Shown piece after piece: positions 7,343-36,001 of a stretch of DNA of 64,000 nucleotides (position 1 is its first letter; every line of letters begins with the position of its first letter). Source of the DNA: Nemopilema nomurai (lineage: Eukaryota; Cnidaria; Scyphozoa; Rhizostomeae; Rhizostomatidae); the NCBI GenBank assembly GCA_003864495.1, contig ML133436.1:4630212-4694211 (forward strand), written 5' to 3'. Position numbers and translations under genes: made by a program. Below the pieces are notes generated by a model. The model was not told where the DNA came from. It searched no databases and was given only the letters and a program-made list of their open reading frames with translations.

Positions 7343-8253
7343 TATTACTCAATGTGTCTCATCAAAGCTGCTACATCCAGTCTCCGGGCACAAATCAGTC
7401 TCCGGGCACAAATCAGTCTCCGGGCACAAGACAGCTTCCGGGCAGAAACCAATCTCCGGGCACAAATCAGTCTCCGGGCACAGGACAGCCTCCGGGCAGA
7501 AACCAGTCTCCGGGCACAAATCAGTCTCCGGGCACAAATCAGTCTCCGGGCACAAGTCAGTCTCCGGGCACAAATCAGTCTACAGACAGCTATATCCGGC
7601 TTCGATTCTACGTGTATGACAGAAAAATCTTTCATACCACATTGTGCATGTAACATTGATCCCGGATGAACGAACTAAAGGCGTTTGGCTAATGGTGGAA
7701 TGGCCGAATGCCCTGACCGTAAGTCGGTAGCTATTGCGACGCTCCGGCCTCGTTCTTGTCTAGCCTTGATAGTTACGCATTGATAATGGCGAACAGTGAA
7801 CTTATGATGATGTTGCTCTTACCACTATCATTGTAAACAGAAACAATTTCTTCTTAGAATGGTATGAATGGTATGGTATGGATATGTAATACTTTTTGTA
7901 TGGTTATGAATTTTTTTATTCCGACAGTCATCTCTAACTGTTTCTCACCGTGATTTTATGTTTTCGATTGATGCGCAGTGTTCAACTTGTTTGGTACATG
8001 TACATAATGATCCGTTCACTCTCCCAAGATTGAGCCCCCCTCCCCTAGGTAGCCATTTTTTATAGAGGAACATAGAACATAGACAATCGTCTCCCTTTCA
8101 AGGCCACAAAACACCAAATAGAAGACCAAAATAGAGCAGGTTGAACGGAGCCTAAGTTGTGGGCCTAAGCTAAAAATCAGAGTGTCAAGAATTCGAAAAT
8201 CGATCTTCTAATTCGACATAGCTTTCGATATATTGACCTGCTTTAAAAGTTTC
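6679..8253. other. AMBRA1 3' end and intergenic DNA before the WD40 gene
   Basis: Contains the possible last AMBRA1 exon (7279-7342), an 18-bp minisatellite (7381-7590) and otherwise unremarkable sequence. No other gene is recognised. Confidence 0.5.
7381..7590. repeat. 18-bp minisatellite, 11 full units
   Basis: Eleven 18-bp units with consensus TCTCCGGGCACAAATCAG start at 7381, 7399, 7417 and so on to 7561, followed by a decayed partial unit to 7590. The period is a multiple of three and the unit lacks stops, so several frames stay open on both strands. These long frames are a repeat artefact, not evidence of a gene. Confidence 0.97.
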
Positions 8254-9487: not shown

Positions 9488-12400
9488 TCACGTGTTGCCA
9501 TCCGTGAGATGGTGGATTTTGTGGAGTAGAAAGAAGCTCACGGAAATGGTCAAGGTGGATACGAAAATGACGAGGAAGGCCCGATCGATGACCATCGACG
9601 CGTACTGCCATTCTTCGACCGTCTCCTTCTTCTTCTCCTTCTCATAAACATCGTGCGTCAGTACCTCGATCTCCTTGTTAAGCAGCTTTGCCTGCCTGCG
9701 CTCAGCGCGCTCGGTCATTCGAATGCCAAATATGTTCTCAAACATGTTTATTGTTTCGGTTGGCGATGAAAGTGACGCCTCGTCGGACTGAGACGAGGCA
9801 GATGCATAATGGTGCAGCGAGCCATTACTCAGCTTCGAATCGGTGTCGTTGTTCTCTTTGTCCTTGTGCCTAGGCCATTGACTGTGCACCGGTTCTTCTA
9901 CCGACTTGTTGCTGCCTTTCTTCGAAGTCCCATTGCTCCCTGCTCTACTGCACCTTGAAGTCTCGGATGCCATGCTCCCATTCACCGTGATGTAGTCGCT
10001 GAAGCGCACAGTTTTCCTTTGCTGCGCGGACCGAAACCTGATCGGCCGCTCTTTCGGCACCTTTTGTCCGCACAATAGCTTGCTCAAATTGTCAAATATC
10101 AGCCACCTGAACCATTCCGGCATTGGCTTGGAGAAATTCTGACGATAGAAATTGGCAAGCACGAATGTAGATGCGGCTAATGAGAAGCCAATTTGGATGA
10201 AAAGTAGAAAGTAAAACAGCGAAAGAAGTGGGACATTGTTGGACGTTGCTGGCAGTTTCTTCCCGGCAATGTTCAAGTAGACGGTCATTGATACCAGAAT
10301 GGTGACGGACAATGTTATGCGTTCGCCACTGTTTGGCGGCAGGCAGAAGCCCAGGGCGATCAGTGACGTGATTGTCGTGACAGGCAGTACCAGTGTGTAG
10401 ATGTAGTACAGGGTTTTCCTGCGCAGGTGCAAATGGTACACGACCTCCGTAAACGGCTCCGCGCAGCATTCGTACCGCACCATTCGCTTCTCCGCGCTGA
10501 ATTTCAACACCTCCCATTCTGCGTTCTGCGTGAAGTGGTCCAAGCCAATGTCCATGTCCACTGGAGTGATGTCCATTTGATTGATCGCCTTAGTCCAAGA
10601 GCTGAAATTTGTTTTATCATGGTTACTCAAGCTCTCAATTTATTTGTTTTTCTCGCAATTTATTTTGCTGAACTCATAATGATGCTTCGAGCAAATGATT
10701 CTTATCATGGAACTATAAGATTGCGGATATACAATTTTTGCATATTTTAACGCTGGGAAACGACGCAAAGCTGGGAAACGACGACATTTTGTTAATAAAG
10801 TTAATTGGCTGCTTATTTCGTCTGCTTTTTATAATTTTCGAATGCTTGCATACCCTGAAGAGTGTGGGGTGAAAACTGCGTTAAGTATGCAAAATAAAGG
10901 TCCGATGTTGGGTGCTACTTAGAAGATGATATTTAAGAACATGATTATCCAAAGCCATCTCTTGGACAGCTATCTAAAATTATGGCCTACCGTTAGGTTA
11001 ACTGAGAACTGTTCTCAGGGGCATAGAGATGCACGCGTCGACTTACCCGAACCTCAAGTCGCAGGCTTGCTGGTCGAAAGGGAAGTACTTGACGTTGATG
11101 TTGCAAGAGGCCTTGATGGAGGTGGCGGCGAACCAGGTGCTGTGGCCAGAGCTGTTCACGATCACCTTGGTGTTCAAGGCCTTAAGGCTGGCCATGTTCG
11201 TGTCCGCACTGGAAGGCAAAACAGCACGTGATTCAGTCTGATGTTAAAGGACGTTCTACGGTGTCACGTATTTTGTCGTAGTTTTGACGAACAGGAAACG
11301 AAAAGTTAGAAGATACTGAACATTTTCTTGTGCAATTAAATATTTTTGAAACTGAGTGTAAAACCTGATTGGGATGAGCTCTCTGCATTCTAAGTTATTC
11401 AATTGCACGCTCAAGCATTAATAGCAGTTAGCATATCTCCATTTAAATCTGTTCGTTGTCGGTATGCTCATTCCTTGTCAAGTTGTGGCCTAGACCAAGT
11501 TTTGGCCTCGACCAAGTTGTGGCCCAGACCAAATTGTGGTCTAGACCAAGTTGTGGCCTACACCATGTTGTGGCCTAGACCAAGTTGTGGCCTAGACCAA
11601 GTTGTGGCCTAGACCAAGTTGTTGCCTAGACCAAGTTGTACATATGAATCATATGCATATAATAAACTGTGGTCGAATCAAATTATTTTACTTGACATTC
11701 TTGTCACAATATTCGACATTGGTACGACTTTTGATCAGACATCTATTTTACATGCACCAAAAATGATGCATAAATTATGTCACTCTGACTCCGAGGCTAA
11801 CATATGCGCACCATGGTTATGTTTTGTGTGCAAGGACGGAAGGCAACAGCCTAGGTCTCTTGAACCAACTACCACAAACTCTCTCCCACTCACTTGTTGT
11901 ATAGCATCAGCACTGGCGTCCATACCATGTTGGGCTCCACATTAACGATGCTGACATTACCGTAGTCTTCCCGTTGCCATGTCAACAAGGGGTTTTTCCA
12001 TTGCTGTCAAAACAGAAAACTTGTGTCAATTGACCTTGCAAAAAGTAGCGATTAATCTGGAACGATCGACTTATGATTATGAATATTATTGAAATAAAGT
12101 TTTTGTTTATTTAAGAAGTCTTCGGTCAATTATGTTCCATGTAATTAAAAAGCAATGAATACTTATTATTCTATTACATGAAATCATGAATTAGCTTTGC
12201 AATTCAGTAATGATTTTGAATTACTGAAATGAGTCACTTATTTCATTTTTCATCAACAAAATTAACTTTGGCTTGCCAGCAAACTGTGGCTTCAGCTTGA
12301 AACGTCAGCATTTTTTCAATTCGATATCCAATTCAATAAATATCAATGTCGTATGAAGGAAGTTTTGCTAGTGAATTCAAAATATATGGTGCTTCACTTT

Positions 12401-15168
12401 AGAGCGAATACTGGAGAACACAAGGTGACGTTGGCCACCAATGCAAAGACCGTTAAAGCAGTCATATTTGACCGAGCACTGCCATGCAAATTTACTCCCT
12501 CTTTTGTTTCACATACAGCTTTGCTTTCTTTGAATCACTAGCAATTATCTTTGTAAATTTCTCCTCTGGCTTTAATAGGTCCTCCAATTCAATGCAAAAA
12601 GCAATACCTGTGTCGTCCAGACATTAAGTTTGATTGTTTGCCCGACTGCATCCTGAAAAAGATTCATTGATACAGCAAATTCCTATCTTAAGCTACGCAA
12701 ATTCTTCGTCAAAACATTAGCTGAAATTAACGCTTTGTGGTTTGCGAAAAAATCTACTGAGATCTGACGGGGGTGGATTCTCTGGGTAACTTTAGCTAAT
12801 TGCGCTAAAGCTAATGATGAAGCAAGCAATCTAGATTTAAATAGTATCGTAACACAAAGTGGTCTGAACGAAGGCAAGCGTTGTGAACGAAGGCAAGCGT
12901 TGTGAACGAAGGCAAGCGTTGTGAACGAAGGCAAGCGTTGTGAACGAAGGCAAGCGTTGTGAATGAAGGCAAGCGTTGTGAACGATGGCAAGCGTTGTGA
13001 ACGAAGGCAAGCGTTGTGAACGAAGGCAAGCGTTGTGAATGAAGGCAAGCGTTGTGAAAGAAGGCAAGCGTTGTGAACGAAGGCAAGCGTTGTGAACGAA
13101 GGCAAGCGTTGTGAATGAAGGCAAGCGTTGTGAACGAAGGCAAGCGTTGTGAACGAAGGCAAGCGTTGTGAACGAAGGCAAGCGTTGTGAATGAAGGCAA
13201 GCGTTGTGAAAGAAGGCAAGCGTTGTGAACGATGGCAAGCGTTGTGAACGAAGGCAAGCGTTGTGAACGAAGGCAAGCGTTGTGAACGAAGGCAAGCGTT
13301 CCACTCACCACGTCAAAGAGCTGCACAAGGCGGATGCTGAGGAGAACTTGAATCTTTGTTTCGAACTGTAGCCTCGGTCTGATGGCCTTGTTCATCAAGT
13401 CGCGGAAGATGTCTGTGATGATTCTATGCTCGTGTGACATAAATGCTTTTGGGTGAAGGATAATACAGAGTTAGCCAAAAGCAGTGAAATTTAGCTTTTA
13501 GAAATATTGAATGCAATAGCTGCTTGATATACTAACTTGGATAGAAACCTAGATAGAAGCGACACTTGCGTAGAAGCAGCAGATGATACCTTAAGTCGGG
13601 TTGTGAATTTCTAGCACAAATGTATTCACATGCAAGCCTCTACACACATTAAACCTTTTATCGATTTAAAACCAAGTTTTCCATTTATGCGTAAGATCCT
13701 CACAAACCGAGTAATGCTTAATCGTGGGTACATTTGTTGACCTGCTGGTCATTAAGAATGCCAAGATCTTACATGCTGCCATTTTAGGCCCGGTTAGTTG
13801 AAAAGAAACCCAGACAGTGAACGAAACAAGCAGCTTGTATGCAAACCCACGTGTTCTTGAGATTCCAATCAGCCTCGTTTGCCTCACTGGTGAATCGCCT
13901 ATGACGTGGCATTTCTTGATGCATTTGACAGCATAACATATGTCAGAAAGCATGAATGCAAAGTCGGCCGAGCGAATGTCACAGACTGCCTCGCTGCACT
14001 CATTCCAAGTGGCGCGCCTTCCCAGGTGGTAGACTTCCTTGCCTCGCATCCCATCTTTTAGCGTCACATTGAACTGCATTGATGTCAGGTGACAAATAAG
14101 TCTCTTTTCGTCGTTAATGATATTTTGAGAGGCGCCGCCTAAAACACAGAATGATTGATTGATTTGATGAAATCTCCACTCTCTGCAAAGAGACGTGAAT
14201 GTAGCAAGCCCAAGCATGGATTACGGGGATCGTAATGGAACAGGATGGAAGTGAAGTTTGTTTGAAGCTGGTCGTCGCTGCATCAGGATTCATAGCCAGC
14301 TATTGTTGAGCTATCTGCAGCTATCTTTAAACAAATACAAAATGAAGGAGACGACAGTGGAAAGGTGTGACGTATCCTTACAGTTTATCACCTGTTGGTA
14401 GAGAAACTTGTAGAGGTCGATGAAAAAACGAGAAAAAATATGTATCATGTAGAGGTCGGAATTAGGCTTAAAGAAAGCATTTTGTCATTAGCAAACCATA
14501 TGTGGGGGCGCCTGGAAGAAATATCAACTAACAACACAGATAACCTGCAGATATGTGTCCGAGTCACTGTTTCCGGGCCATTTTCGATCATTTCTGCTAT
14601 TCAGATGTGTTGGAATGCTGGCTTATTTTCTTCCAATGTTCCATAATTCTTTAAGAATGCTTACGCATTTTTACAAAAACCAATTCAATATGGTCAACAT
14701 AATTTCCAGTGTTCATTTGGCTTGTTACCTTTTTAGTTGCGAAGTCCTCCCGGTAAAATTCCATAACATGGTAAAGACGTCCAGGAAATTTACGGATAAA
14801 TTTACAGTAAAATTATTGCTTTGATCGTATATGAAGTTCTTGAAGACACAATCTGTTGCTCGTTAATTGACAGAACACTTTCTAATGACCTACATCCGTT
14901 GACACATCACATCATACTGAATAACACAGGTTGAAAACAAACTCCCTATCAACTTTTAATTCAACCCCCTTGAAGTGTTTATAAATTGTGGCAACATGCA
15001 TAAAATTGCTGTCCATCCCAATTTTGAAGCTGCATTTAGTGCAATTTACGGAGCTGGAAGGAGGAACCATGCCTCCTGCATGAAGAATCACCAAAAATAT
15101 TGTGAAGAAAGAAGAAATGACATACATGCAGTGACAATTGCCAACAGGACCATCAATATGCGCCTCAT
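9488..15168 (-). CDS. Nicotinic acetylcholine receptor-like Cys-loop channel subunit with cysteine-rich N-terminal domain
   Basis: Seven coding exons join in consistent phase to 614 residues: 15168-15126, 14138-13888, 13428-13309, 12652-12608, 12003-11894, 11208-11047 and 10601-9488. Order: signal peptide MRRILMVLLAIVTA; a cysteine-rich domain of about 83 residues; ligand-binding domain with loop D (VWTTQQW), loop A (WTPVLMLYNNAD), Cys-loop CNINVKYFPFDQQAC with 13 residues between cysteines, loop B region GSW, and loop C RYECC with the vicinal cysteines of alpha subunits; M1-M3; a long M3-M4 cytoplasmic loop rich in S, K and E; M4 (FLVIFVSTLTISVSFFLL) near the C-terminus. M2 is preceded by SGER, whose glutamate is typical of cation-selective pores. 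The 45-bp exon 12652-12608 matches the size of a conserved nicotinic exon. Oddities: the second loop-C tyrosine is phenylalanine (AEPFTE), and M2 ends in KK where acidic residues are common. The acceptor at 13429 is the least certain. Confidence 0.92.
11480..11639. repeat. 17-bp minisatellite in a receptor intron
   Basis: About nine copies of a 17-bp unit (GTTGTGGCCTAGACCAA with variants) in the intron between receptor exons 12003-11894 and 11208-11047. Confidence 0.93.
12867..13300. repeat. 19-bp minisatellite, about 23 units, next to a splice donor
   Basis: Tandem units GAACGAAGGCAAGCGTTGT with rare single-base variants (GAATG, GAAAG, GATGG). Because 19 is not a multiple of three, all three minus-strand frames read the same 19-residue cycle, producing long false frames. 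The array lies in the receptor intron and its last unit ends a few bases from the donor of exon 13428-13309. Confidence 0.97.
13888..14138 (-). other. Cysteine-rich domain exon of the Cys-loop receptor
   Basis: A 251-bp exon bounded by acceptor CTGTGTTTTAG and donor GTGAGG. It enters in phase 1, matching the signal-peptide exon donor (CAT|GTATGT after 15126), and leaves in phase 0. It encodes six cysteines, including WNECSEAVCD and ICYAVKCIKKC, and one N-glycosylation sequon (NVT). The W-x-x-C-x4-C pattern with later cysteines vaguely recalls MANSC or PAN/apple modules, but I cannot assign a family. Ordinary nicotinic subunits go straight from signal peptide to ligand-binding domain. Confidence 0.7.
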
Positions 15169-18050: not shown

Positions 18051-21000
18051 ATGATGCTGTTCGTCTTTCTCGTCATCTTTCTGCCTGCTTACGAAGGTAA
18101 GAAGTCAGCATTAGTCATTTCTATGCTACAACGTAATGTTTTCAATTCCAATACAAAGGATAGCATTCTTGCATTACAAATGTGTTTCTCCTTGTTTTGT
18201 AAACCAATCCTAAGTGATTCTCATCAAAGCTGTCTCGAAGTGAAGCAGTTGTAGAAATCATTCAAAAGCATGTTTAATATCATTGTATTTCAAATCAACC
18301 CAATGATAATTGCTCCGCATGAAATCTCAACAGCTTCGGAGTGGTGGAAACGGTCTAAAATTGTTTACCTGAAAGTTTGCAAAATTGCGAAGACGAATAT
18401 TGTCTACGTGAATGTCATTCTCTGTAAATTATGCATTTTGCAATTTGTTTAAACGTTCTAGCAATGAATCTCGCTTAGGCCTTCCAAATAATCTACCCAT
18501 CTAATTTCAAATCGTAAAAATAACCATGGTTTGATTTTACTTCTTGTTCGTCTCATCAAACTTGTTTGGGTACCTTGTCAATGAAGTTACTGACATCTTA
18601 TCAACAGGCTTGAGGCAATCAGGAGTGAGTCTTAATCTTCTAACTAATGTTGCCGTCAAGTCTACCGGTTGGTACAAAGTAAAAGGCTGGCAGAGTCCAG
18701 TTGACACGGGACACGCGATTATTGGAACAAAGTTGAAAGCACCTGACAACGCCGACGTACTTGTGCCACATACTGGGATATACCTTGCTTTTGTGACAGT
18801 AACACTCACTGGTGCAAATGTTGAAGGCAAATTCAAAGCCAGATTGTTGATAAATGATCAATTCAATAGCAGTCATACTGGAATGAGTTCATCAACACTG
18901 GGTGGTCCATTGGGGCCCAAGAGCCTGAGCTTCAAAGGGGCCATATTGCTTCAGTCAAGGGATTACATCTCCGTGCATGTTTATTCTGAAACAGATAATG
19001 ATTGGTCGATAAGTGGCCAATCAGAGACCACTTTTTCGTTGCAATATATTGAGGCATTCGGGGCAACACCTGGGTTTTCGGCAATTGTCGAAAAGACAAC
19101 AATCTACAACAGTTCAGGTTGGAACGATATTAAGCACTGGCAACACAGAGGGGAAGCTGGGCTTTTCAAGAGCATGACCGGATTCTCAAGGTACATTGGG
19201 GAATTCGCTGCAATATGTGATGGCATTTATGCTTTCACTGCAAACATACAAATTATAACGGATGCCACCAAACCCTTTGATCTAGGAATCGCAATAGATT
19301 CGTTTGTCAATGGCAGCATTCTAAGAAAGACCGCTACGAAGGAATTCACCCTATCAATGTCCACGTCTTTGTTTTTGAGAAAAGGACAGCTTGTCTCCTT
19401 GCGAATAAACTCACAGGGGGAAGCATTTACAGTTGGAGCTGAAAGCGCCTTCACAGGAACAAGAATGCGTAGCAGCAGCATCACAGTGCCAGGTACGATT
19501 TCATTAGTGATTTGGCATATGCGCACATTCTCACGCCTTTCCAATATATGATCGTCCCAGTAATATCTACTGATCCACAAGAATCCCTTTAAACCTAGTA
19601 AGGGAATTATGGGGAGGGTTGGGCTCTCCCTTGCCCTAGTTTATTTCAAGGTAACCGCGTTGTCTTGAAGGCAGAATACTTTTAAACAACGTATCAAATG
19701 TGCCGGTTTGACTTCGCAGGATTCTCAACAGTGCTCGAACATGATATTCAAGGAAGCGGCGCCCGCTGGACTCAGGTTCCTCTTCTGCAACCGAACGGTA
19801 CCTCCTTTGGGCAATTTCAAGGCGAGGCCAGGTACATCACTGGAGGCAGGTTAGTGTCCCCTGAGTCAAATGCGGCCATGTTATCGCACGTCATGTTGAT
19901 AGCAATCTCATCGTACGTTCAGGAGGCCAAGCGAAGTGATTATTAAGCCCGATGCTCATTTGAATTTGTCATCAGTCGCACTGGCACTGTCCCAGGAAGA
20001 GGTGTTAAGAACAAACGGTAGATGGAACGTTGCGATGCGTAACAGCAACATTAGGGGGTGGGGGGGGGGGATGCTTGTTGCAGCAATTCTGTAGGATTCT
20101 GAGGCACACGCACTTATGAGTGAAGACTGATTTGCTTTCTCCTAGTTATTACCCCCCTGAAAACGGAATCTATGTTGTGTCAGCCAATATACGCATCGTC
20201 GCAGAGAGCCTGATCACTGCCAACATCTTTACGAGGCTCGATTCGGCTTCGAGGCTGACTGGCAACATCCTGGGCGTCTACACCAGCATAACGAAGACCG
20301 ACTACGCCGAAGAGGTCACCTTCGCAGCGGCTGGAACGATCGAGTTGCTTACATCGCAGAACAAGCTATCTCTGTTTATATACATGCAGAATTCAGGAAA
20401 GTTCAGAATACTTGCTGGAAGCAGGATCTCTGTCATCAAAGTCGAGGAACGGTACCCAGCATTCCATGCAACCCTAGAGGCAGATGTAAGTAGGCCTGCT
20501 GTTAATGTTGTTGTTGTTGTTGTTGTTGATCTGAGCAGCATTTGGTGCTCAGCAATTGTTTCTTACCGCTTATGACCTAAAGTGGGCCTACCTGAAATCT
20601 TAGCAAAGGAGCTAGAGCAGTGAGCAGCTCCATGATGCACCCATGTGCTATTCTAATTATTAATAAAAGATTCACGATAAGCAGTATGGTTTTATGAAGG
20701 GGTCTAACCGTACAAGGTAGTAAGTATTTGCTTCAATTTGGTTGTATGCCATTTCTTCTTTATTGATATGAATCTTGAAGTTTATTAGTTTTACAGCACA
20801 CCCGCCACTCGTGGACGATGAAAGAAGGAAACTAGCAGTGCGATTTTGATAAAAAAGAAACACATCTCCATGGCTTATTTTTCCTTTTCTTGCAGGTCCC
20901 ACAGTCTTCAGATAATGCCTGGGTGGAAATTTCAGCCTGGAAGATAAACAGGGTCTCTGGATCGTTTTCCCTGACAAAGTCACTGTCTGAAACGACTGGT

Positions 21001-24000
21001 CGCTACACCGCAGAGGCCTCTGGCATTTATCACGTGTCCGCCAACATGATGTTCAATGCTCCAGCGAGCGTTATATCCCTGATGATTTCAGCCAATGGGG
21101 ACCAGTCGAAGCGCAATACTTTGTTTTCAACAAAAGGAAACCTGGGCAGCAAGGACTTCTTGACTGTCAGTGGCTCGCTCAGACTAACAAGAGGTTTGGT
21201 CCTAGCCTAGTGTCACGTGATATTCTTCATCTTAAGTTACGGCCTACACAAGAAGTCATCCTTATTAATCTCTACTTCTTCATTTAGCAAGTATCCTTCG
21301 AATTACTGTTCCCCTAAACGCTCAGACATCAGTGTAATTAGTGCACATAATCGCGTTCAAAACTCATTTTACCGTTCTACGCCGTGGCATTATTTAGGGA
21401 CGGTTTGTTCTTAGGTGACTTTGTATCCGTCATGGCCAAAGTCACTGGCACTTCGTCATGGTCAGTTGCGGACAAGAGCAGCTTCTCTTTGGCTTTCGTC
21501 GGGCTACCTTTTTCGGTACCAGGCTTCTCAGCAGTCTTCTCCTCCACGAGGACATTCACTTCTGACCTTTGGCACCAAATGCAAGGACTACAAGAACCTG
21601 GCTCTTCAGGAACGATGTACCATTATGGTGGTGGGTTGGAGGCGAGTTCCTGCAAGTACCAAGTACCACTTCCTGGTTTGTACGCAGTCAGTGCCAACCT
21701 GAAACTGAAAAGTGCCACACGAATTGGTGCACAGTTCGCCGTAAACATTGCACTTGATAACAACCCCGGGTCTTCCACATACCTGAATGGCATTAATGAC
21801 TACATAGCATACAGTACCAGTCTTGGGGTCGAGTAAGCTCTTTCACTTATTATGTAATCAACAATTCGTAGTTTGGAATAGTTTACAATTTATTCAATAC
21901 TCATTCTTTCTATTGCATTAATGTTCCTGCTGCAGCCTATTTAGAGCATTTTCAAGGTTAAGGTTGATTGCTAGCAAATGTAAAATAGAATTAATTTATA
22001 CATCAGCTTGGTTTCCGTTCATGGAAACAATGTTTATTCACACTAATTTAACTTGTGAGAGGGCCAAAACCCTTTTGACTTGAAGTCGATGCATTCTTGC
22101 AGGGACTTCTACTCCATGAATGTCGCTGGCGTTCTCAAGCTGCAAGCAAAACAAAACGTCACATTGTGGGTGAGATCGACCTCGGCAGGAACGTGGCAGT
22201 TGAGCGAAGACAGCAGCTTCAGTGTCCTCATGCTGCATCCAGTGGGCGCCATAGATTCGTCTGGCTTGCAGGCAGTTCTTAGCCTCGGAATATCGCAGAC
22301 CATCCTTGGCGCAACCGACTGGAAAATCGTTCGATCTTGGACTACCACCAGAAGCAACTCTGGGGCAGGGCTATTTAGTCTAGGTAATTGAATGCAGTGA
22401 CTCTTTAGCTTTGTAACTTGCTCAATTCAGTGGTACAGGGAATTTTATCGGAAATCACCCCCGTGTCGTTCTACTGCTCTCACTCTCACTGGTAGGACAT
22501 GATCTAATCGAATCTTTGCATTTCTTTTGGGTATAAAGCCCATTTAGAAAGAACGTTTTGTGGGCTTCTCGTCGACTTTTCTTTATTGTTTCTTTTTGTA
22601 AATAAGGTAACTACCAAGAGATCTCTTCATCAAGCGGCACTGTTAGCATACTGCAGTCTGGTTTGTACTTTGTATCTGCCTCCATTACACTGATGGATGC
22701 CATTGGGAAGTTCGAAGTTGGTGAGTTGAAAGAACTATATCGCACTTAATGATTACGATGAAATTGATGATGATGATAATGATGGTTATAACGCTGATCA
22801 CGATTAAGATGATTATTGCTATTATCATTATTTCTATCATGATTCCGATTTTGATTCTGATGATGATTATTATTATTACTGATGATTGCTATTATCATTA
22901 TTTTTATCATGATTCCGATTTTGATTCTGATGATGATTATTAATACTGATGATTGCTATTATCGTTATTTCTATCATGATTCTGATTCTGATTCTGATGA
23001 TGATTATTATTACTGATGATTGCTATTATCATTATTTTTATCAGCGACAACTATGCACGAATTTTTAGTGTAAGTTTTTCTTTTCTAGGTATCCATCTCG
23101 ACTCTCGCTTAGCTGCCTTGTACTCAGTCATCGATTCCAGACTCTCCAGTTACACCGTGAAAGTAACAGGTCTGCTCTTTATCTCCAAGGGACAAACGTT
23201 ATCAGTGCAGGTAAGATTCGCAACTTACTTCTTCCATTTCAAGGAGTGGCTGCTGAGCAAAATTTAGGGGCTGAAGAAAGTGACAGTTTTGGCATTCCAT
23301 CTAAGTGAGAAGATATAAAATAGGGGAACGAGTCTAGGCGCTCAAAGGTTGTTTAGTTAGAAGTTGAAGAAGCATTAACTATATCGAACCCGAAAATAAA
23401 AGACGAAAAGCAGAAATAGCACTGCATATGCATACCCATCTACAACTTGGTCAATTCCAACTAAAGATTATACAAATTAAATTTAGCTTCTCACCTTCTT
23501 CTTGTATTCTTAAGCAAATTTGATACAGATTCCGTTTCAACTTGATAAGATTGAAGATTGTTATCTGTAAAACTTACTATAGTTAATCAAAGTTAATTAA
23601 CAAAGCCAATGAAATTCTACCAGCGCAATCACATTCCCCCTTTCCTGGCACTTGACTCTCTGAAGCTCTGGCACCTAGGGTAATGGAAGTCATGTTTTCT
23701 CTGATAAAACGGTCCTCCCATAGCATTACAAAATATCATGATGTATTCTTGGTGAATATTATTTCAGACACTTTGTTTTTGAACACGTGAAGTATGTTTA
23801 TATGATATAGGTGAAAGCTCCTTTGAAGATGAAGTGGGAGCAGGATATCTTGTACTGTGGATTATCCTTTGTGAAGATAGGCCCTTTTGTTGTTCCACCC
23901 CTTGTTTCATCCGGAACAACGCATGAAAGATACATTTCATTGCAAAAGAAGTAAGTTGGAAATCTCAAATAAATTTAGATTTTTATTGATTGAAGACAGC

Positions 24001-27000
24001 CTCCTTATACAGGTTAACTCAATGCCCACTGTAAATGTTGACAAACATTTACTGGAGCTCGTCCTTCTGTCATCTTCCTGTTGATATTATACCAATCGCC
24101 TTTGTCACATATGTCCATTTATGTATGGCACCAACTTGTAAACTTTCTCATCGGATTGATGAGTTGTTTATGCACGGTACAGTATCCCACATAACTAAGT
24201 AGTAACTACTGTATCCAAGTTTGACGTATACTCTGAATGATTTTTGTGTGCACTGTTGGTATACGATAAAAGTGATTGCCAGAGGTATATGAAAGAAAGA
24301 AATTTTCTCTTGCATCAATGCTTTGCTTTTCCTCTTTGCCTTTCATTCTAAGATTAACATACCAAGCACTTTTCAACAATAGCTTGTGGACAAGAGTAGA
24401 CAGCTGGAAGACACATCTCACCGACACCCAGCTGTTGACTGGCAATGAGTTTCTGAAGACCTCGGGCGTTTTCAAGGCACAGAGTAGCGGAATATACATC
24501 GTGAGCGGATTCTTGGAAGCAGAATCAGCGACTGCAAGGGAGTCGATGGAAATGAGGCTCACTGTGAACGGGGACACCACCAATATCACCACATCGAGGC
24601 CCGGAAGCGGCCTAAGCTCTGTGGTCTCTAATTGCAACAAAAGTTGTGTTTTGTTTGGCGGGGGTGTCTTCTCACTCTCGGCACTCGATACAGTGGCAGT
24701 GTATATGACAGCCAGCCAAGACGTACAGTTGAAAGTTAGTAATGCGAGTGTCTTTTCTATTTCCTTGATCTCCGAGTCCTTCCCGTTACCAAATGGCATG
24801 TTTGGACTACTAACGTTAAAACAAACAATCAGCGTCAAAGGAAACAAACAAGTCACAGATTGGGTGCTCTCACCCTCATCCGGGAACTTCTTTGGCTCAA
24901 CTGGAAACATGGACAGTTTTTCTATCCAGAAAACCGGTATCTACTTTGTTTCAATCAACATCAAGTTCAGGAATCTTCTTGGAGTTGCAAAGGCGTTTAC
25001 GTCTTTGGTAAACATCCCATCAATAACCTCGGTGAAAAGACAAGAGTCTAATTCCGTGTTCACATTGTCTGTAGCCGGGTGCATGAAAATAAGTTCCGGG
25101 TCATCATATACCGTTACGGTCTTTTCCGAGACTGATTCCAATTACGAAATCATGCCTGGATCGTCGAAGTCGGCGATATTTCTTGGTTCACGCGCTGCTG
25201 GTTTCATTGCGACACAAACATCAACCAAGTCATTGGCATTGACTTCTAATCAAGCAAGTGTCATAACTGGATGGACTATTCTCGGAAAAGATTGGCTTTT
25301 TGAATCTGGAACTGGATTCGGCAATCGAGTTTCATTCTTGGTACAGGAGAGTGGAATCTATTACGTGAGCTCACACGTCATAACCAGCTTGAACACGAAT
25401 TCTAGTGACGTCATCTTATCTCTTGGCGTTCTGCTGGACGGCTTGTTGAGCCAAGAAAACGGACTGTATTCAAGCAGCAGCGTACATGGCATTGTGACAG
25501 AAACATTGCTGATTTCTGGGAGTGTGTTCCTGCAGAAGTGGACGCAAGTAAAGCTTGTTATGCTTGCCAGCAAAGCCGCAAATGTTGAAATTAGCATCGA
25601 CTCAACATTCTCTATCGTGAAAACAAGTAAGCACTTTAGTGATCATTGCTTTAGCGTTCTCGTAAGATCATGCTGAGACATGCTTTAGGATACTGGACCA
25701 TGCGATTCGAATAAAGATGTGATCGAACGCCGTGAATTCAGTGTTCATACACGACTTAGATGTTGTATTGCACTGCTTGAAAGCTTTGAAAGTGTATTGC
25801 AGGTAATGCGACAAACTTCTGCGTTTTAGGCAAAGAGCTACGCGTGGCCTCCTGCGCAGACAACGGGCCTAACATCATAGGCAAGCTGGACCCGACGGCC
25901 CTACGCACGAGCTACCGGAAGTCAATCGGCTGGCAATGTGAGGCTGTTGGTCAGTCCGTTGCATACAGCTGGCTTAAGGATAACCAGGTATGAAGTGTCC
26001 TGCAATTGACTTTTCATTACAATGCTTTGAGATCAGATATATTTTGCCACGTAATGAATTTGTACAGGTGCTAGTTCTAACATTAAGTAAAGAGTTGTAA
26101 TTTGTCTCCCTAACTTTTTCGATGTTGGCAACTAGGGAAAAATGGTAAAGAATTGCGCTCTCCTCCGAGCTGAGACCAAAGCAAGAAGCTGCAATGTGTG
26201 ATGCCTTTTGTTTATTGTGGCTCACATAGATGCTACAGACCTTTACTAGATAAGGTTTGGTCCATGTAATAAGAGCCAATCAAGCCCTAAGTGACATGTA
26301 ATAAATGTGCAACAGAATATCCATTTTCTGTCATTCATTCACGAATTCATTGATTACAAAAGTGTGCGTGAGTGAATGTAATACTTAAAATCACATGTTT
26401 TTACCTGCAGCCACTTCCTGGTAAAACCCTGCCAAGTCTTCAAATAGCAAGTACACAGGTTTCAGACACTGGAGAGTATGTTTGCGCAGTGGCACACGAG
26501 GGAGTTCGAGTCACGTCAAATGTGGCAAAACTGACCGTTTATGGTACGTCAAACTACTTCTCGGACTGTTTACGTCATCGCAATTATGTGCCAAAATAAG
26601 CAATTATATCTCATCAGAATCGACTTGATTTGAATACAATTCTCATTTCAGATCCAGTCCCATTATTCATGAATCCAGTTGGCGAGTACAGCCTGAGAAC
26701 ACCTGAAAATGGACTCAACGCAACAAGTTTCTTGTTCATCCAGGCAAGAGCGAAAAGCCTTGGTAGTGCATTTGCATTAATGTCCTTTGAGATCATTTCA
26801 GGTAATAAAAAAAACTTCACTTTCATCTTTTTAAAAACCAACTTTTTTTTATGATCTGATTAGGAGCTTGTCACCTAATTCCATCTGTTGTGAATAGCGC
26901 TACCACATTGTTGGTAAGACAATAGGAAGCAAGGTCACGTGTTCCAGTGAGATTAGTAGCTTTAATCTATGCCATGTATGGGTAGGACTTAATATTGTTG

Positions 27001-30000
27001 ATGGTTCCAAAAAATATAACCATCATCCAAGACATGGCTTGATCTTAGCGTTTGAAGAAAATCTAGCATTGATGGCACGGCGAGCGTGAGCAGTAATATC
27101 CAACTAGCGGTTTGGGCTTTCCATCATGTTTTCAAACTGAAGCATACGATTGGTTGACATTCACAGAAGGATTGCTTAGTTGGACTGAACATGAAAATGA
27201 TGACGTGTGATTTACATAATATCCCTTTCAAAACGCAATGATGACGTATGATTTACATAATATCCCTTTCAAAACGCAATGGTGACGTGTGATTTACATA
27301 ATATCCCTTTCAAAACGCAATGGTGACGTGTGATTTACATAATATCCCTTTCAAAACGCAATGATGACGTATGATTTACATAATATCCCTTTCAAAACGC
27401 AATGATGACGTATGATTTACATAATATCCCTTTCAAAACGCAATGGTGACGTGTGATTTACATAATATCCTTTCAAAACGCAATGATGACGTATGATTTA
27501 CATAATATCCCTTTCAAAACGCAATGGTGACGTGTGATTTACATAATATCCCTTTCAAAACGCAATGATGACGTATGATTTACATAATATCCCTTTCAAA
27601 ACGCAATGATGACGTATGATTTACATAATATCCCTTTCAAAACGCAATTATGACGGGTGATTTACATAATATCCCTTTCAAAACGCAATGATGACGTATG
27701 ATTTACATAATATCCCTTTCAAAACGCAATGATGACGTGTGATTTACATAATATCCCTTTCAAAACGCAATGATGACGTGTGATTTACATAATATCCTTT
27801 CAAAACGCAATGATGACGTGTGATTTACATAATATCCCTTTCAAAAGCAATATGACGTGTGATTTACATAATATCCTTTCAAAACGCAATGATGACGTGT
27901 GATTTACATAATATCCCTTTCAAAACGCAATGATGACGTGTGATTTACATAATATCCCTTTCAAAACGCAATTATGACGTGTGATTTAAATAATATCCCT
28001 TTCAAAACGCAATGATGACGTATGATTTACATAATATCCCTTTCAAAACGCATTGCAATTTACCATCTCCACGAGCTACAGTGAACTCTGGAGACACGTT
28101 ACCATGCTCTATTAGATTAACATTGATCACTATTTCACTATTAATATCATATATTTATTAATATATTACAGGAAATATCAACAACACATTTTCTTTGAAT
28201 CCTGCCAAGTCAATAGGAGGAACGTTCTTGTGGAGAATGATCCCTCTGGACAGGGAAACAGTAGAAAATTACAGTATTATTATCAAAGCAACAAATCTGG
28301 AAGCATTTTCAGTCGAATACCAACAAATCAACATTACCGTCGATGATCTTAATGACAATGCACCTATTTTCACCCAAGCAATGTATGAATCGTCGATCTA
28401 TGAAAATACAACACTGGGAACAACTGTTGCAAGAGTTCTTGCTACCGACAGAGATATTGGCAAAAACTCTGTCATCAACTATTGGTTTATTCCTAGTTCT
28501 GCCAAAAATGTTTTTTCAGTTAATTCAAAGACGGGATACGTAACTTTAGATGGCCCCATAGACAGGGAAACGAGAGACCTGTACGTGATTTTTGTAAAAG
28601 CCTCAGACGAGTCGCACAGCGCCTATTCAGAGCTGTCCATAAAAATACTAGACATTAATGAACATAAGCCAGTGTTTAAGGTGCATTACTACTCTGTCAA
28701 TGTGTCCGAGACGATGCTGCCCGGATCATCCATCATTCCAGTAACGGCATCAGACAATGATACCGGACCGAATGCGGACCTCACGTACAGTATAGTTGAC
28801 GGAGACCCTCATAGCATCTTCCGAATAACCAAGTACGGAATGATTCAGAATAGTAAAGCCTTGGATTATGAAAAGAACAAGACTTTCACCTTGACTGTGT
28901 CAGTTAGAGACAACGGCCAACCTCCATTGTATTCAAATGAGAATGCAGTTGTTCTTATTAGCATCACAGATGCAAATGACAATAGTCCGGCGTTTGAGAA
29001 GGCCAGCTATTCTGCAAATGTGTACGAGAACGAAACTATTGGAATGATCATACTGACCGTAACAGCGAGGGACAATGACGCACCAGGACAGCCAGGTGAG
29101 TAAAGAAGTCATTAACGTATATCTTTGCTTCCAATGAGGTCATCAAGGTATGTCTAAAGACAGTGTCTTCTCCTCCTTACTTAATGTTTAGATGTAGAAG
29201 GTCACTGATTTTGGCACTTTGACACATTACGTTTCGCAATATTGTCAACATTTTTGTAAATAAACACATCAAATGTTTAATTCCCCACTCCGATAAGATT
29301 ACAGTGCTTTTCCAAAAGACTAAGGAACTAATTACATAGAGTTTGTAATTGATTCGGCAGAGTAATAGATTCCTTAAATTTTCTATTCAGAGGATTTTTT
29401 GAATCATCTTTTAGCATCTCTGTCAGATGTTATCGTCGATCTGTCTTCTTTTCAAAAGCTTTATTCTTGATCAACTGGTCGTTCATTTAATTTTAGAAAG
29501 TCTTTTGACATACGAAATGGAGAGAAAAAGCCCCGAAATGGAGATATTTTCAATAAACTCATCAAATGGGCAGATAAAGCTTAACATGTCACTGGATTAT
29601 GAACGAATAAATTCGTATAGATTTGCTGTTACTGTAAAAGACGGTGGGACGCCCTCTCTGCAGGACAGTGTTCTTGTGTCAGTCAAAGTGTTGGATATAA
29701 ATGACAACAGACCATTCTTTACGCACTTGCATTTCTCTATTAATGTTACCGAGTCCTCGCAACCAAACCGCAAGGTATTCAAAGTAACCGCTTTTGACGC
29801 GGACGCCGACGTGAACGCAAAACTCAGGTATCACTTGCAGTCTGGCAACGTTGGAAATACATTTGTTATGGACCCAATATCAGGTCAGTTGCAATGTCTG
29901 TCTGTAGCGTGGTATTTACAAACGACTTTATCAGAGCTGTGTGCCATAATATTGGTGGAATAGTGGAACGCTCAACTGCATCGTTGTTGATCAATTGATT

Positions 30001-33000
30001 TTGGAGTACAGGAGACCAAAGGTTTTCCTGAATGTCTCATTCGGTTGAAATAATATATTCTGTCATTTGACGGGAGTCTCCTAGGATGGTTTGATACCAA
30101 AATTGATCAATTGATGCAATGATAGTTAAATGATTCTTAGGATCGTCTCTGGAAGAAAGTTGAAAAATTCTCTCATTTCTGTTTTGAATCAGTGAAATTT
30201 TGCGTTAATACCAAACTTAAGTTTCAATGAAACATTGAAATTCTAATGAATTATTATAGTTTGCACAGATGGCTATCAAAATTTTTTTCGATACAGGTCA
30301 GGTTATTGCATTGAAGCCACTGGATCGTGAAAGCCACATGTTTTACAGCCTTTTTATTGGTTGTAATGATATGGGGAATCCACAATTGGAAGCGGTATCA
30401 CCTCTGAGATTGGACATCAACATATTGGACGAGAATGACAATGCTCCAAAGTTCAACCTTGAGAAATACTCAGCTACGATTTCGGAAGAGACTCCCGTTG
30501 GCTCAACAATTCTTTCAATGAATGTTTCGGACCCAGATGAAGGGCAGAACGGAAATTTTAGTGTGAGAATTGTCGAAGACAGCGCAAGATCAATTTTCGA
30601 GTACATCCAAGGCGAAGGAGTCCTCATTCTGAAGAAGAAGCTTGACTTTGAATCACAGTCAAAATATCACTTCACTATCATTGCAAAGGATCATGGGACC
30701 CCACCACTAGAGAAGTCTACACAGGTGGGTATAGAGATTCTTGTCATGGACTTTGCCTAAAGCCGGGCAAAAGGCAATCATATACCAGGTTTCACGAAAT
30801 ACTGAAATTTCTTTGCCACTTATCCTGTTGAAGCTTAATTAATACACACACTACACTTCTTTGGAGCTGATGTCAGTGTGACTGTATGATAATCACAAGT
30901 TATAAGATTGTAATTATAAGTTATTATAGAGCCGATAGTTGGCCTATTATCAGAAGAAGAGGTTTGTGTTTATCAATTTGTTATAAATCGACGGCGTAGA
31001 GCAGTCTCTGGCTTAAAAGTCAAGCTTAATTAAAGAGCTGCTATTGGCGTAGTCAATGATGCCTAGTTGAGGTAAGAACTTACTTTATTTGAACTTAAAG
31101 AGCTGATTGTCTACCGTAGTGTTTGGGTAATTAGTTTTTCAATCGCGTTTGGGAGCATAGAGGTTTTCCGGTAGCTTTGAAGAGGGTTTGAAGATGAGCT
31201 TGAAACTGCTGCCTGTTTCGTTAGGTCAATATCGAAGTGACCGATGTCAATGACAACGCGCCTCGCTTCTCGCATCCCAGTTATGACACGCAGGTCCAGG
31301 ACATGGTTTATGGCAATGTGACAGTGTTCCAACTGATCGCAACCGACCCCGACATTGGCCCAGCCAAAAGAATCACGTACGAAATTGCCCATGGCAATGT
31401 GGACAACCAGTTCAGAATCGGAGAGTACAGTGGTGTGTTGATCTTTGATCGATATGCTTCATCTTTTCAATAACATTAAAAATTTTAAATTTAGTATTAA
31501 ATAAAATTTAATAATATTTGAAACCTCATTTCATGTTATATCTGCTAAAAATAAAATATTTTGCTGATTTACCAAAGAAGGAAGAATAAATAAAAGGCTA
31601 TTAGAAATTTTACTGTGCATATTATTTTTTGCAAAAGATTGTGAATGATGCTAAGCTGATTCAGTGAACCCCGATTATTCGGTAAGAAATTTGTGAAAGA
31701 AAGGTAAATGATAACTCAAATATAGTTTAGCAGAATAAATGTTTGAGCGTAAGGTTCTTGTCTTGTTGTTGTTATACACCAATGAAGGTGACAATTCCAA
31801 TTTTCTACCAACCAAATATTCTTTTTTCCTTAAATTCGTGGAAATGTGCAACTTTTTGCTATTTTTTTAGGAATTATCGAAACAGCCAAGTTTTTAAACA
31901 CTACATTTATTAATCTATTCAAACTCGAAATTATTGCGAAAGATGGATTCAATCCACCGGCAACTTCAAATCGGACGGTCTTGAATATTCACGTGACCAA
32001 AACACCGGCAATATGGCTGACCAACGTGAAGGCTGGAACATCATCTCTGGAAGCAGTTGTTGATATATCGGAGTTTTCCTACCTAAAGATCGCGCAATAC
32101 CAAGTTTTGGTTCAACTCTACAAATCTGATGATCCCTATTGTACGTCTAATTCTTTTTTCTCCATATTGCGCTCTGCGAAATCAATTGATGTTGCATTTG
32201 TATCCCAGATTGTAAATTTTCGACAAAATACTTTTTGCTTTATTAAGGTTCCTGCTTTTACCAAAAGATTGCTTGTGCTCTTGTAGAAGTCACAATAAAC
32301 TTTTGCTACAAAATGCTTAAAGGCGACAATTAGACAGGAATCCTAATATTTCCTTTAATAGAATAAGCGAATGTGGTAATCATAAAAAGTTTCTTTGCAA
32401 GGTAAACCTGCCAATAAGCGTGTTTTATCATCTTTTGCAGTCAACATTGCCGCTAGCCTGCCTCCAGTAAGCTGGTATAAAACGAACGTGGAAATTTCCG
32501 CCCTGAGTACGATCCGGCGGTACATTGCTCTTGTCACTCAGGCCTCTTCAATCAACGGAACAAAGATGAAAGTGGTAATTGGAACAGAGACCGGTTGCCA
32601 AACGAGGCCAACTGAAAACTGCAACGGTCCCTTGACACCAAACAAAAGATACAGGTGCCCAGCTTTGATTACTCATTTTCGTCTGCTTTATACTTGAAAG
32701 GCGTATTAAGCTCATGAGAAAATTCAAGAAATGATTGAGTAGGAGGCGTCTTGCAGAAGCCGCATTCGCAAAAGCCCAAATTATTCAGATTGCGCCTTGT
32801 CAAAATATATCTAGTCATTGCCAGGAAGTGTTGGATGCATTGCAGGCGAACTTATGATGCCATGCGATTGTTGCACAATCTCTTGCTTCCCTGCAGCAAC
32901 CTCCGATTCAACTTAATGTTTTCACTAGGAGGCTGGTCAAGGGAACCGGTAGAATCTGAATTTGGACTTGAATCTGAATCTGAATCTGAATTTCATTGCT

Positions 33001-36000
33001 GCTTTGAGGTTATTTGATGACGTAGTTGAGTCTTCTTTAATCGATTTTAGATTGCAAATCCGAGGAAAAACGAATAACAGCCAGTTTCCTAGAGACAGCC
33101 ATTTCAGCACTCCGATATCATTAGGTATGTTGTGAGCTGTTTTGCTAATGCGTAACACAATTTTTCAAGGGTGTATTCAGACTCTGTCCTGTTGAAGTGA
33201 ATAAGTGTTGAGAGGAACAACCGCAGTTAAACTGGGCTAGTATTCAGCAAAGGGGTTTTTTCTTGTTACTACTAGAAAGGGATTGTGGGAACATCGTACT
33301 AGGAAGCCGGGCCATGGACTGCCCCATTAGAAGTAGGGGCCACGGGAATGCTCTTTTAGATAGGGAGTGCAGAAAGACAACGTTCCTTTCTGTGTGGATG
33401 TGTTTTTGTTCTTGTGCAGGCACGCCTGCTGCCACGGCTGCGGAGTTGGTCGACTCAAGCATTAAGGATGGAACGATTGGCCTGGCTGTGGCGTTTGCGG
33501 TTTGCACACTGCTTACGATCTCAATCCTCATTGCATACATCCAATACAAACGAAAACACCAGTAAGTACATACACATGAATGAAAGGCCTAGTCGAATGA
33601 AATCAACTTGTTTGAGTGTGGTTCCTGATTAAGTGAACCAAAACAGTAGTTGCTTACAGAGCAGGTCTGAGACGAAATGTAAGACATCTGATGCATCTAA
33701 TATCAGAAGGCTCGTTTTCTTACCAAAATCCCTGCTATCGGGAAGGTCTTGAACGACATCAGTTTTGCCCTAGAAAGCCACTTACCGACAAACTCTGCTT
33801 CAAGTTTGATCTACTTGCATACGGTCTAGTACCCATGCTTTTCATTTCATGGTTTTCACTTTACCGTCTACATCTTATTATTTTCCCTTAGCATTTCAAT
33901 AAAATCTCTCCCTTGTGTGAAGGTGTTGCGGATACAATAATGGTATAATTTTTTGTTTATAGAATAATTGAGGTTGAACACGTGAACAAGAGCTTGGAGC
34001 TAATGCAAAGTAAAAAGTTTGGTGATCAGCTGACGCCGAGATCTGGGTGAGATTACTGGAAAGGCACATAAGTGAAAATCCTAGTTATTCATTAAGTATC
34101 CTTCTTTAGAATGTCAATGTAATGTATTAGTATTGAGAGACAACTAAGAAGGCCGCTGGTTATGCAAGATACATTGAATGCTTTGCATAAATCTCAGTTA
34201 CTTAAAACAAAAGTCAGGAACTCACTTTGTTGCTTCAGCAAATAGAAACGCAATGCCTTGCGATTAGGCCAGTGTCATCATGACTCTGTCGCAGCCATCT
34301 CGTGCAACGTGCAGCAAGTCAATCTGAATTTTGAAGGCCTAAAGTCATTCTTGTGACACAATTATCAAATGAAGATCATTTAAACTTTGTTTCTCATAGC
34401 TTCGGGGCACTGAGTGATATAGGCGTGTGGCCTGAAATGTCCATGGCTGAGGCATCGCACATGTTCCAGCGAAGGTATTTTCATCCTTAGACGTGCTAAT
34501 TTTATCGCTTATTTATTGTTTAGTAAGGGGATAACACAACTTTATTGATTCGATTTTGGATTAATTAAAAGTAGCACGGAGATCAAAGAAAGTTGAAAAT
34601 CAAAATTAAAGAAGCTTTTACAAGAACATTTTAATGATAATACTAGGTGCACGTGTTGTTCTTAAATTAAGTAGAAATAGAATGAATAAACGAAGATGGT
34701 TATGATTTCTATTTGGAGATATGAATTGGTCATCGTTTTGCATAATCCTTAGCGAAACTGGAAACGAGATAGTGCCTGGAAATGTTTGGCTTTCTATTTT
34801 GAACGCCCTTGAAATGCTTTAATTTTGTTTACAGTCAAGCACCAAAAGACCTCAAAAGACCGAGAAGTCCTGGAGACAGTATGTATTCATTTCATGTGTC
34901 AAAAAATCCATCTCTTTCTCACTGCATTGACGTTTTAACATAAATCAAAGCTTTAGAAATCAAAATATCAATTTATTATTTTTAGACTGCCTATCATCTG
35001 CTTAAGAACACACTTTTCCTATTCAGCTTCTAAAACCTACATTTTCTCAGTACTTCGTTAATTGCAGTTTTACTATAATTCCGCATCGGATCTTTGTATA
35101 TTCTATCATGTTTAAAAACCAAGAAATATACTCCTGTATCAAAGTCAAATTCAGCAAAATTAAAAAATTGCAGAAGAGGAGGTATCTTTTTCATTAAACG
35201 GACTATGAAATAAATCACTGTGGAATAATTCTTGAAAAGGTGGAATAAATCACGGAAATGAAGACGACGACAGCTGGCGCTTGAACATTTCTGACGACGG
35301 GGAGGAGCCCTGGGAAGGTAACTTGTTTCCTAGAAGTTTCTTATTATTTTCTTAGAAGAACTTTGCAAGGGCCTTAGTATTATAATAAGGAAGAAGCAGA
35401 TAGTAGAGAAATGTTCTATATTGTGACATTTCCAAGTTTCTACGATTGCTTTTTTACCATTGACATTAAAACCCAGAGGAATTAAATGGGAATTAATATC
35501 TTAACCGCCCTCGGTCGAACAATTTTCTGCTGGATAGGAGCGAAAGTGAACCTTCATTTGTCTGGGACCGCCTGTAGATGCATTCTAAAATTATTAATTC
35601 GACTATGATTTCTCTAAATAATTAAATATTGGATGGTATTATGACGACTTATTTCATTAGCACGTGGTCAAAACATGCGATCAAGGGACCAAAACACGCG
35701 ATTACAAGAACAGAATGTGTTAACATCTTCTGCACACAACAAGAGCTTCCAACGATCGGGTCTTCTGAACAACAGCGACAGCAACACATCACTAGACACA
35801 AGTATGGACAAGTTTCACCTGCCTATGCTACCTGAAAGTTTGCACTTCGTAAGAAGTGACGGGCATGAAGCTCGTGCGAAAACCAAGGTTGCCGGGGAAA
35901 CAGAAACCGAGATCGAGACAGAATTTGGGCCTGAAATAGAGACCAGCCTCGGTGTGGATGCTGACTTGTCAAGCATTGATGAGGAGCTGTCGGACGATTG

Positions 36001-36001
36001 A
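18051..36001 (+). CDS. Giant type I adhesion receptor: 9 C1q/TNF-like domains, Ig, 7 cadherin repeats, membrane helix
   Basis: Twenty-seven exons placed: 18051-18096, 18608-19492, 19720-19849, 20146-20485, 20896-21193, 21415-21832, 22103-22383, 22607-22720, 23089-23210, 23811-23950, 24383-25626, 25830-25987, 26411-26543, 26652-26801, 28172-29095, 29497-29883, 30297-30724, 31225-31432, 31871-32140, 32441-32654, 32897-32948, 33420-33561, 33963-34046, 34400-34474, 34835-34878, 35240-35317 and 35661-36001. Phases agree at all junctions except 32948 to 33420, where a small exon or different donor is missing. About 2,570 residues: signal peptide MMLFVFLVIFLPAYEG; nine jelly-roll modules to about residue 1340; one Ig domain; seven cadherin repeats (DLNDNAP, DANDNSP, DENDNAP, DVNDNAP linkers); an FN3-like juxtamembrane stretch (CNGPLTPNKRY); membrane helix near 33470-33545; an acidic tail without an enzyme domain. 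Cadherins imply calcium-dependent adhesion; ligands are unknown. Confidence 0.9.
20044..20071 (+). repeat. G-rich tract
   Basis: Run of guanines interrupted by one T and then AT, in the intron between exons 19720-19849 and 20146-20485 of the adhesion gene. Confidence 0.9.
22749..23042. repeat. GAT/ATT-rich imperfect tandem repeat, about 80-bp period
   Basis: Three degenerate copies of a block containing GATGATTGCTATTATCATTA, TCATGATTC and GATTCTGATGATGATTAT, built on a GAT/ATT trinucleotide theme, inside an adhesion-gene intron. The plus-strand frame 22749-22943 is a product of the repeat. Confidence 0.88.
25830..26543 (+). other. Immunoglobulin domain (two exons)
   Basis: Exons 25830-25987 and 26411-26543 encode GWQCEAVGQSVAYSWLKDNQ, then LPGKTLPSLQI and DTGEYVCAV. 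The B-strand cysteine, core WLKD tryptophan, L-x-I and D-x-G-x-Y-x-C are the canonical Ig (I-set/V-like) residues. The intron between the two half-domains is phase 0. Confidence 0.9.
26652..32050 (+). other. Seven cadherin repeats
   Basis: Repeats follow one another with linker motifs DLNDNAPIF, DINEHKPVF (degenerate), DANDNSPAF, DINDNRPFF, DENDNAPKF and DVNDNAPRF. The seventh ends HVTKTPAIW, lacking the calcium-binding linker. Internal LDRE/LDYE and (A/S)-x-D-x-D motifs are present (PLDRETVENY, ATDRDIGKN, LDYEKNKTF, TAFDADADVN). The first repeat is split by the large intron that carries the 41-bp minisatellite. Confidence 0.93.
27198..28052. repeat. 41-bp minisatellite, about 21 units, in an adhesion-gene intron
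   Basis: Each unit runs ATGATGACGT, then (A/G)TGATTTACATAATATCCC, then TTTCAAAACGCA. Variants are TGGTGACGTG or TTATGACG(G/T)G at the start, and one to a few deleted bases (CCTTTC for CCCTTTC). There are no unique spacers. Every unit carries a TGACG(T/G) core and TTTACATAAT. Confidence 0.97.

Follow-up and report, generated by a model that had tools for sequence, protein, structure and literature searches.

C1q/TNF proteins are usually regarded as ligands, either secreted or on membranes, whose trimers assemble from separate chains, and C1q trimers serve as binding modules. Molluscan C1q-Ig proteins of the QREP type join a C1q and an immunoglobulin (Ig) domain in one chain; they are soluble, carry a single C1q domain and are not known to contain a cadherin. 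Here, we analyzed a gene on a 64,000-nucleotide stretch of the genome of the scyphozoan Nemopilema nomurai (assembly GCA_003864495.1, contig ML133436.1, positions 4,630,212 to 4,694,211; in the following called the window), which likewise joins C1q and Ig in one chain, with nine C1q-like repeats (D1 to D9) and an Ig domain preceding seven cadherin repeats and a transmembrane (TM) helix.

CTRP4, as described in PMC9952994, is secreted and contains two C1q domains; it shares with the window protein the presence of more than one C1q unit per chain, but has only two and is without cadherin, Ig and TM. The same paper reports that mammalian hexameric and larger adiponectin binds T-cadherin with calcium, whereas the trimer does not, and that CTRP9 binds N-cadherin. 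In both pairs C1q trimers and cadherins occur jointly at the cell surface, but ligand and receptor are separate proteins, whereas the window protein has both folds in one chain. The head proposed below also resembles single-chain trimers engineered from C1q, adiponectin, cerebellin or APRIL-BAFF (5hkj, 4dou, 5kca and 4zch), in which the three jelly-rolls of one chain form one trimer; these are laboratory fusions of three copies, whereas the window head is natural and its units have diverged.

Gene model and domain order

The reading frame of the gene (Table 1) runs from the ATG at 18051 to the stop codon ending at 36001 in a single frame, and all 26 introns have GT-AG borders. The acceptor of exon 12 was revised from 25803 to 25830, because three relatives from the databases (P0001, P0002 and P0012) align without gaps only with this acceptor, 27 bases downstream. 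An earlier sequence-only reading had proposed one continuous frame, which was retained, and a length of 2,570 residues, which after this revision became 2,575. Colinear alignments to P0002 and P0012 enclose junctions E2/E3 to E18/E19, and the alignment to P0001 encloses those up to E15. The E1/E2 junction has alignment support on its downstream side only, and those beyond E18/E19 were set by splice signals and phase alone.

In residues 1 to 1340, Pfam detected TNF (65.9 bits, cut-off 23, five stretches) and C1q (45 bits, cut-off 23.7, three stretches). Among single repeats, D5 scored 22.1 bits with TNF, under the cut-off, D9 reached 17 and D3 gave no match; D5 alone had no C1q or TNF match among PDB sequences. 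A first repeat profile, built from the nine window units and units of four relatives, recovered nine units in the window protein, and a profile made without the window protein and P0001 again found exactly nine, at 40 to 94 bits each, compared with a maximum of 5.7 bits in 200 shuffled controls. The count of nine in the sequence-only reading was thus recovered independently, although Pfam sees fewer stretches. By sequence profile, the repeats belong to the C1q/TNF superfamily at the domain level. The CTRP/adiponectin family, with a collagen stalk, one C-terminal C1q domain and secretion, differs from the window protein, which has nine N-terminal repeats and a TM segment and no collagen family in its Pfam list. 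A search of the N. nomurai genome with Pfam C1q gave no match, the controls being equally blank.

The Ig domain scored 23.8 bits with Ig_3, under the Pfam cut-off of 30, but both Ig cysteines are kept in the aligned region and the counterparts in P0002, P0008 and P0012 pass the cut-off, in favor of the earlier assignment. Past residue 1340, Pfam Cadherin matched seven stretches with 397.6 bits, which agrees with the seven repeats read earlier. DxNDN-type linkers follow repeats EC1 and EC3 to EC6, and DINEH follows EC2; DxN[DE][NH] motifs were found at six sites and LDRE-like motifs at six, and six of the seven stalk repeats keep calcium-site motifs. Tandem repeats together with these motifs place the stalk in the cadherin superfamily. 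Cadherin_C, expected of a classical (catenin-binding) cadherin, was not among the 13 families found at E<=10 for residues 1341 to 2584 of the first model. The best PDB sequence match of the stalk was CELSR1, followed by protocadherins; to our knowledge, neither family has a C1q or Ig head.

Close to the membrane lies a domain absent from the sequence-only reading, which matched PTP_tm with 24.6 bits (cut-off 26.3) and nothing in the PDB at E<=1. Pfam detected no PTPase domain in the window protein, as a receptor tyrosine phosphatase would have, and no PTP_tm in the three relatives scanned (P0002, P0008 and P0012). The predicted membrane helix was found as the only strong TM segment, at residues 2341 to 2363, which supports a membrane protein as the encoded product. 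The tail ends in -ELSDD and is without NPxY, unlike the tails of P0002 and Sycon, the only relatives with this motif. The tails of the coral proteins P0012 and P0022 end in -DTRL and -ESRL, respectively, which we take to resemble PDZ ligands.

Relatives and paralogous loci

The C1q-Ig-cadherin order was found in six proteins including that of the window (the others being P0001, P0002, P0008, P0012 and P0022), all with nine C1q units per block. Database searches returned this order in corals and a sponge, all as entries named 'uncharacterized'. The claim that no described family has this order stands for the openly licensed papers searched, among them the parts of PMC9952994, PMC12549020, PMC5560861 and PMC6626399 covered here, in which no description was found; the architecture itself is not unique, being present in Oculina, Sycon and Stylophora database proteins. 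The component folds are known, but we are not aware of a precedent for the number of units, for the proposed covalent trimer or for their combination with Ig and cadherin.

The alignment of P0012 with the window protein proceeds repeat by repeat, covers 2,155 residues and has 30% identity. The best partner of a repeat had the same index in nine of nine cases against P0001, six of nine against P0012 and one to four of nine against the others, so that beyond cnidarians the orthology of single repeats rests mainly on the D2 cysteine described below. When seven C1q-Ig blocks were placed in a maximum-likelihood tree with midpoint root, one fully supported split (100/100) set the window, P0001, Oculina and Stylophora apart from P0002 and the two Sycon blocks. 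Long branches led to P0022 and to each Sycon block, and the union of the latter two was marked as a possible artefact. Together with the 81 genomic matches to the pentameric ligand-gated channel family, which is not known from demosponges, this split made a cnidarian origin of the window likely and spoke against a sponge.

Tandem C1q proteins without cadherin were also retrieved (P0009 to P0011 and P0013 to P0016), one with a Symbiodinium-type gene name. P0009, P0010 and P0016 have 18, 6 and 3 units, multiples of three that are suggestive of single-chain trimers, but P0010 has an additional half unit between 465 and 513, against a strict rule of this kind. P0011, P0013, P0014 and P0015 lack one end, and their units could not be counted.

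Four other loci of the N. nomurai genome encode C1q repeats followed by Ig, and wherever both halves of the Ig were seen, it is split at the identical profile position. Nine units and then an Ig are present in the window protein, its relatives and loci C36a and C129b. EGF and TM at the four loci were read off open frames and not profile-scored. Since the stalks vary between cadherins and EGF-like repeats across loci, the C1q head and Ig appear to be a conserved cassette whose stalk is exchanged. The constancy of nine units in sponge, coral and several paralogs indicates a strict structural rule.

Table 1. Features of the window gene, its relatives and paralogs, and other features of the window (aa, amino acids)
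Feature	Position or source	Strand	Remarks
Whole coding span	18051..36001	+	27 exons, 2,575 aa
Exon 1	18051..18096	+	hydrophobic N terminus, probable signal peptide, judged from sequence
C1q-like repeat D1	18622..19065	+	aa 21-168
C1q-like repeat D2	19072..19482	+	aa 171-307; contains Cys219 (codon 19216-19218)
C1q-like repeat D3	19492..20458	+	aa 311-458; interrupted by introns
C1q-like repeat D4	20459..21515	+	aa 459-600; introns inside; opens modelled D4-D5-D6 pseudo-trimer
C1q-like repeat D5	21522..22250	+	aa 603-755; one intron inside
C1q-like repeat D6	22263..23894	+	aa 760-906; introns inside
C1q-like repeat D7	23904..24785	+	aa 910-1059; one intron inside
C1q-like repeat D8	24795..25199	+	aa 1063-1197
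C1q-like repeat D9	25200..25840	+	aa 1198-1343; final residues encoded by exon 12
Pre-Ig Cys1348 and Ig domain	25853..26542	+	Cys codon 25853-25855; aa 1348-1436; two exons; intron position common to paralogous loci
Cadherin repeats EC1-EC7	26543..32004	+	aa 1437-2180; exons 14-19
Intron 14	26802..28171	+	41-bp tandem repeat x21 at 27196-28052
PTP_tm-like membrane-proximal domain	32005..33421	+	receptor phosphatase J type; aa 2181-2322; under Pfam cut-off
TM helix	33476..33544	+	aa 2341-2363
Cytoplasmic tail and stop	33545..36001	+	212 aa, six exons; no Pfam domain detected
P0001	EukProt		52.7% identical over 1,805 residues; stops just past onset of fourth cadherin repeat
P0002	JGI		2,985 aa; 15 cadherin stretches; first unit incomplete at protein start
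P0008	Sycon ciliatum LOC135810172		4,524 aa; nine-Ig-nine-Ig; 14 cadherin stretches
P0012	Oculina patagonica LOC144659523		2,336 aa; seven cadherins; starts within first unit
P0022	Stylophora pistillata LOC111337931		2,004 aa; two units weak and overlapping
C36a	C36:116.7-122.8 kb (to 141 kb; L034-L036, L047)		nine C1q, Ig, ~35 cadherin repeats, TM candidate near 140.7 kb
C36b	C36:370.7-376.8 kb	-	eight units found, Ig, at least 7 cadherins
C129a	C129:432.6-438.4 kb (to 441 kb; L025, L027)		eight units found, Ig, one EGF-like repeat, TM
C129b	C129:2,757.9-2,763.2 kb (to 2768 kb; L030-L031)		nine units, Ig, EGF-like repeat series, TM segment
Single TNF domain gene	C133:552196-552567 (L001, L041)	-	85.8 bits
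WD40 protein exon	8212-9111	+	first beta-propeller of WDR3 as top match, 164.9 bits
Pentameric ligand-gated ion channel gene fragment	9491-10639	-	Neur_chan_memb 115.5 bits, LBD 30.2; family has 81 matches in genome
Tandem array	12865-13300		19 bp x23
KIAA0319_N match	13669-14220	-	weak, 26.6 vs cut-off 27
COG7 (Golgi complex component) exon	50793-51293	+	39.6 bits
Tandem array	56969-57384		47 bp x9
P-element-like (TNP-like RNase H) transposase	57498-59771	-	open frame 758 aa

Arrangement of the head and alternative explanations

Two cysteines of the window protein, Cys219, which stands ahead of the G-x-Y core of D2, and Cys1348, immediately ahead of the Ig, have counterparts in most related blocks. 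Both are present in nine of 11 units (window, P0001, P0012, P0002, Sycon a, Sycon b, C36a, C129b and C36b) and missing from C129a and P0022, the latter having its D2 cysteine three residues earlier. When the neighboring cysteines of D7 and D9 in Sycon block a are paired, exactly the D2 and pre-Ig cysteines remain in D1 to D9 and the linker; pairing those of D2 and D3 in block b leaves the same two, save one partnerless Ig cysteine. A Cys219-Cys1348 disulfide, spanning more than 1,100 residues and closing the head, is a possible feature predicted from this pattern.

Structure models were made on P0001 (53% identical to the window protein) with five to six alignment rows. In both, D4 to D6 assembled within one chain, even with a construct starting out of register, and the best structural matches were C1q/TNF chains, above all the engineered single-chain trimers named above. 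These predicted structures show the jelly-roll fold of the C1q/TNF superfamily and its assembly into a trimer. For D4-D6, trimer and register are modelled on P0001, and we infer corresponding trimers for D1-D3 and D7-D9; the nine jelly-rolls probably form three intramolecular trimers rather than nine separate binding modules.

The gene and its frame, the domain order, the nine repeats and their conservation are observed. From these we propose, with a probability of about 70%, that the gene encodes a type I receptor at the cell surface, belonging to an animal family that is old and has not been described, with a head of three intramolecular pseudo-trimers. Nine C1q/TNF-fold domains in one chain would pack as D1-D3, D4-D6 and D7-D9, a disulfide from D2 to the D9-Ig linker would clasp the head, and one Ig would connect it to a rod of seven calcium-stiffened cadherin repeats, followed by a juxtamembrane domain resembling that of phosphatase J, a single TM helix and the tail. 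Somewhat less firmly, we favor the view that the family predates the sponge-cnidarian split and is defined by a covalent C1q nonamer of three single-chain trimers in fixed 3x3 register, the 219-1348 disulfide and exchangeable cadherin/EGF stalks.

Several points weigh against the proposal. The case is built from sequence and predicted structure, and the models, of P0001 rather than the window protein, have a mean predicted local distance difference test score (pLDDT) of 68 to 71 and a predicted template modelling score (pTM) of 0.56 to 0.58. The best alignment per chain was displayed, and the trimer grouping was thus seen for D4-D6, not for D1-D3 or D7-D9. The cysteine count comes from few sequences, which share descent, with C129a judged from its first two visible repeats only, and the tails of the relatives are mutually dissimilar. 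Finally, repeats three apart were not more alike than others in six of seven blocks (p = 0.16 to 0.67, compared with 0.035 for P0008a), so that a three-fold sequence periodicity within blocks is unsupported in these six.

This missing periodicity would fit trimers assembled in trans by lateral association of three chains, the ordinary C1q/TNF arrangement, or domains that hang as separate beads, and the well-studied C1q/TNF proteins in the part of PMC9952994 covered here all trimerise between chains. We nevertheless consider such an arrangement unlikely, as both P0001 models group D4-D6 within one chain even from an out-of-register start, and nine, a multiple of three, is constant over paralogs and phyla. 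It is highly improbable that a secreted C1q array gene and a neighboring cadherin gene were wrongly fused in the model. The model was derived from genomic sequence and not from transcripts, but splice phases are continuous throughout, the C1q part of P0001 continues via the Ig into four cadherin repeats, an unbroken frame of P0002 on a 10,894-base contig covers this transition too, the models from Oculina, Stylophora and Sycon span the same order in one polypeptide, and the seam between Ig and cadherin (LTVYDPxP-like) is conserved. The two-gene reading was rejected on these grounds; they support the assignment of the C1q array and the cadherin part to one predicted gene, as the sequence-only reading had it.

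A stronger competitor, though still the less probable one, keeps the anatomy and changes the role: the protein would chiefly be a recognition receptor (immune, self/non-self or microbial), with the cadherin as a spacer that is elsewhere replaced by EGF. It would account for the C1q-Ig cassette standing on cadherins (window, C36a and C36b) or EGF repeats (C129a and C129b), followed by TM, and for the fast divergence of the repeats (30% identity between window and Oculina). However, this divergence was measured between species, and the calcium-site motifs kept in the window stalk fit an adhesive, or at least stiff, cadherin.

Implications for early animal adhesion and recognition

For the proposed receptor with three intramolecular trimers, we infer a role in multivalent binding, adhesion or signalling. 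Multivalent ligand binding and calcium-dependent adhesion are plausible, and we take the receptor to be multivalent, with either adhesion or recognition as its task. Three trimers with unlike faces would provide avidity in one molecule, for which adiponectin needs several assembled trimers; the stalk would hold them off the membrane for a partner that sits on an adjacent cell or belongs to the matrix, and signalling or anchoring would fall to the tail.

If the proposal is true, the head represents natural covalent C1q trimers with unlike subunits, a counterpart of the laboratory single-chain trimers, and a C1q trimer and a cadherin shared a single adhesion molecule well before the pair of adiponectin and T-cadherin. 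The timing of the first cooperation between C1q and cadherin would become testable, the exchangeable stalk, cadherin or EGF, would separate the role of the head from that of the stalk, and the means of adhesion or recognition in early animals would include a receptor family not described so far.
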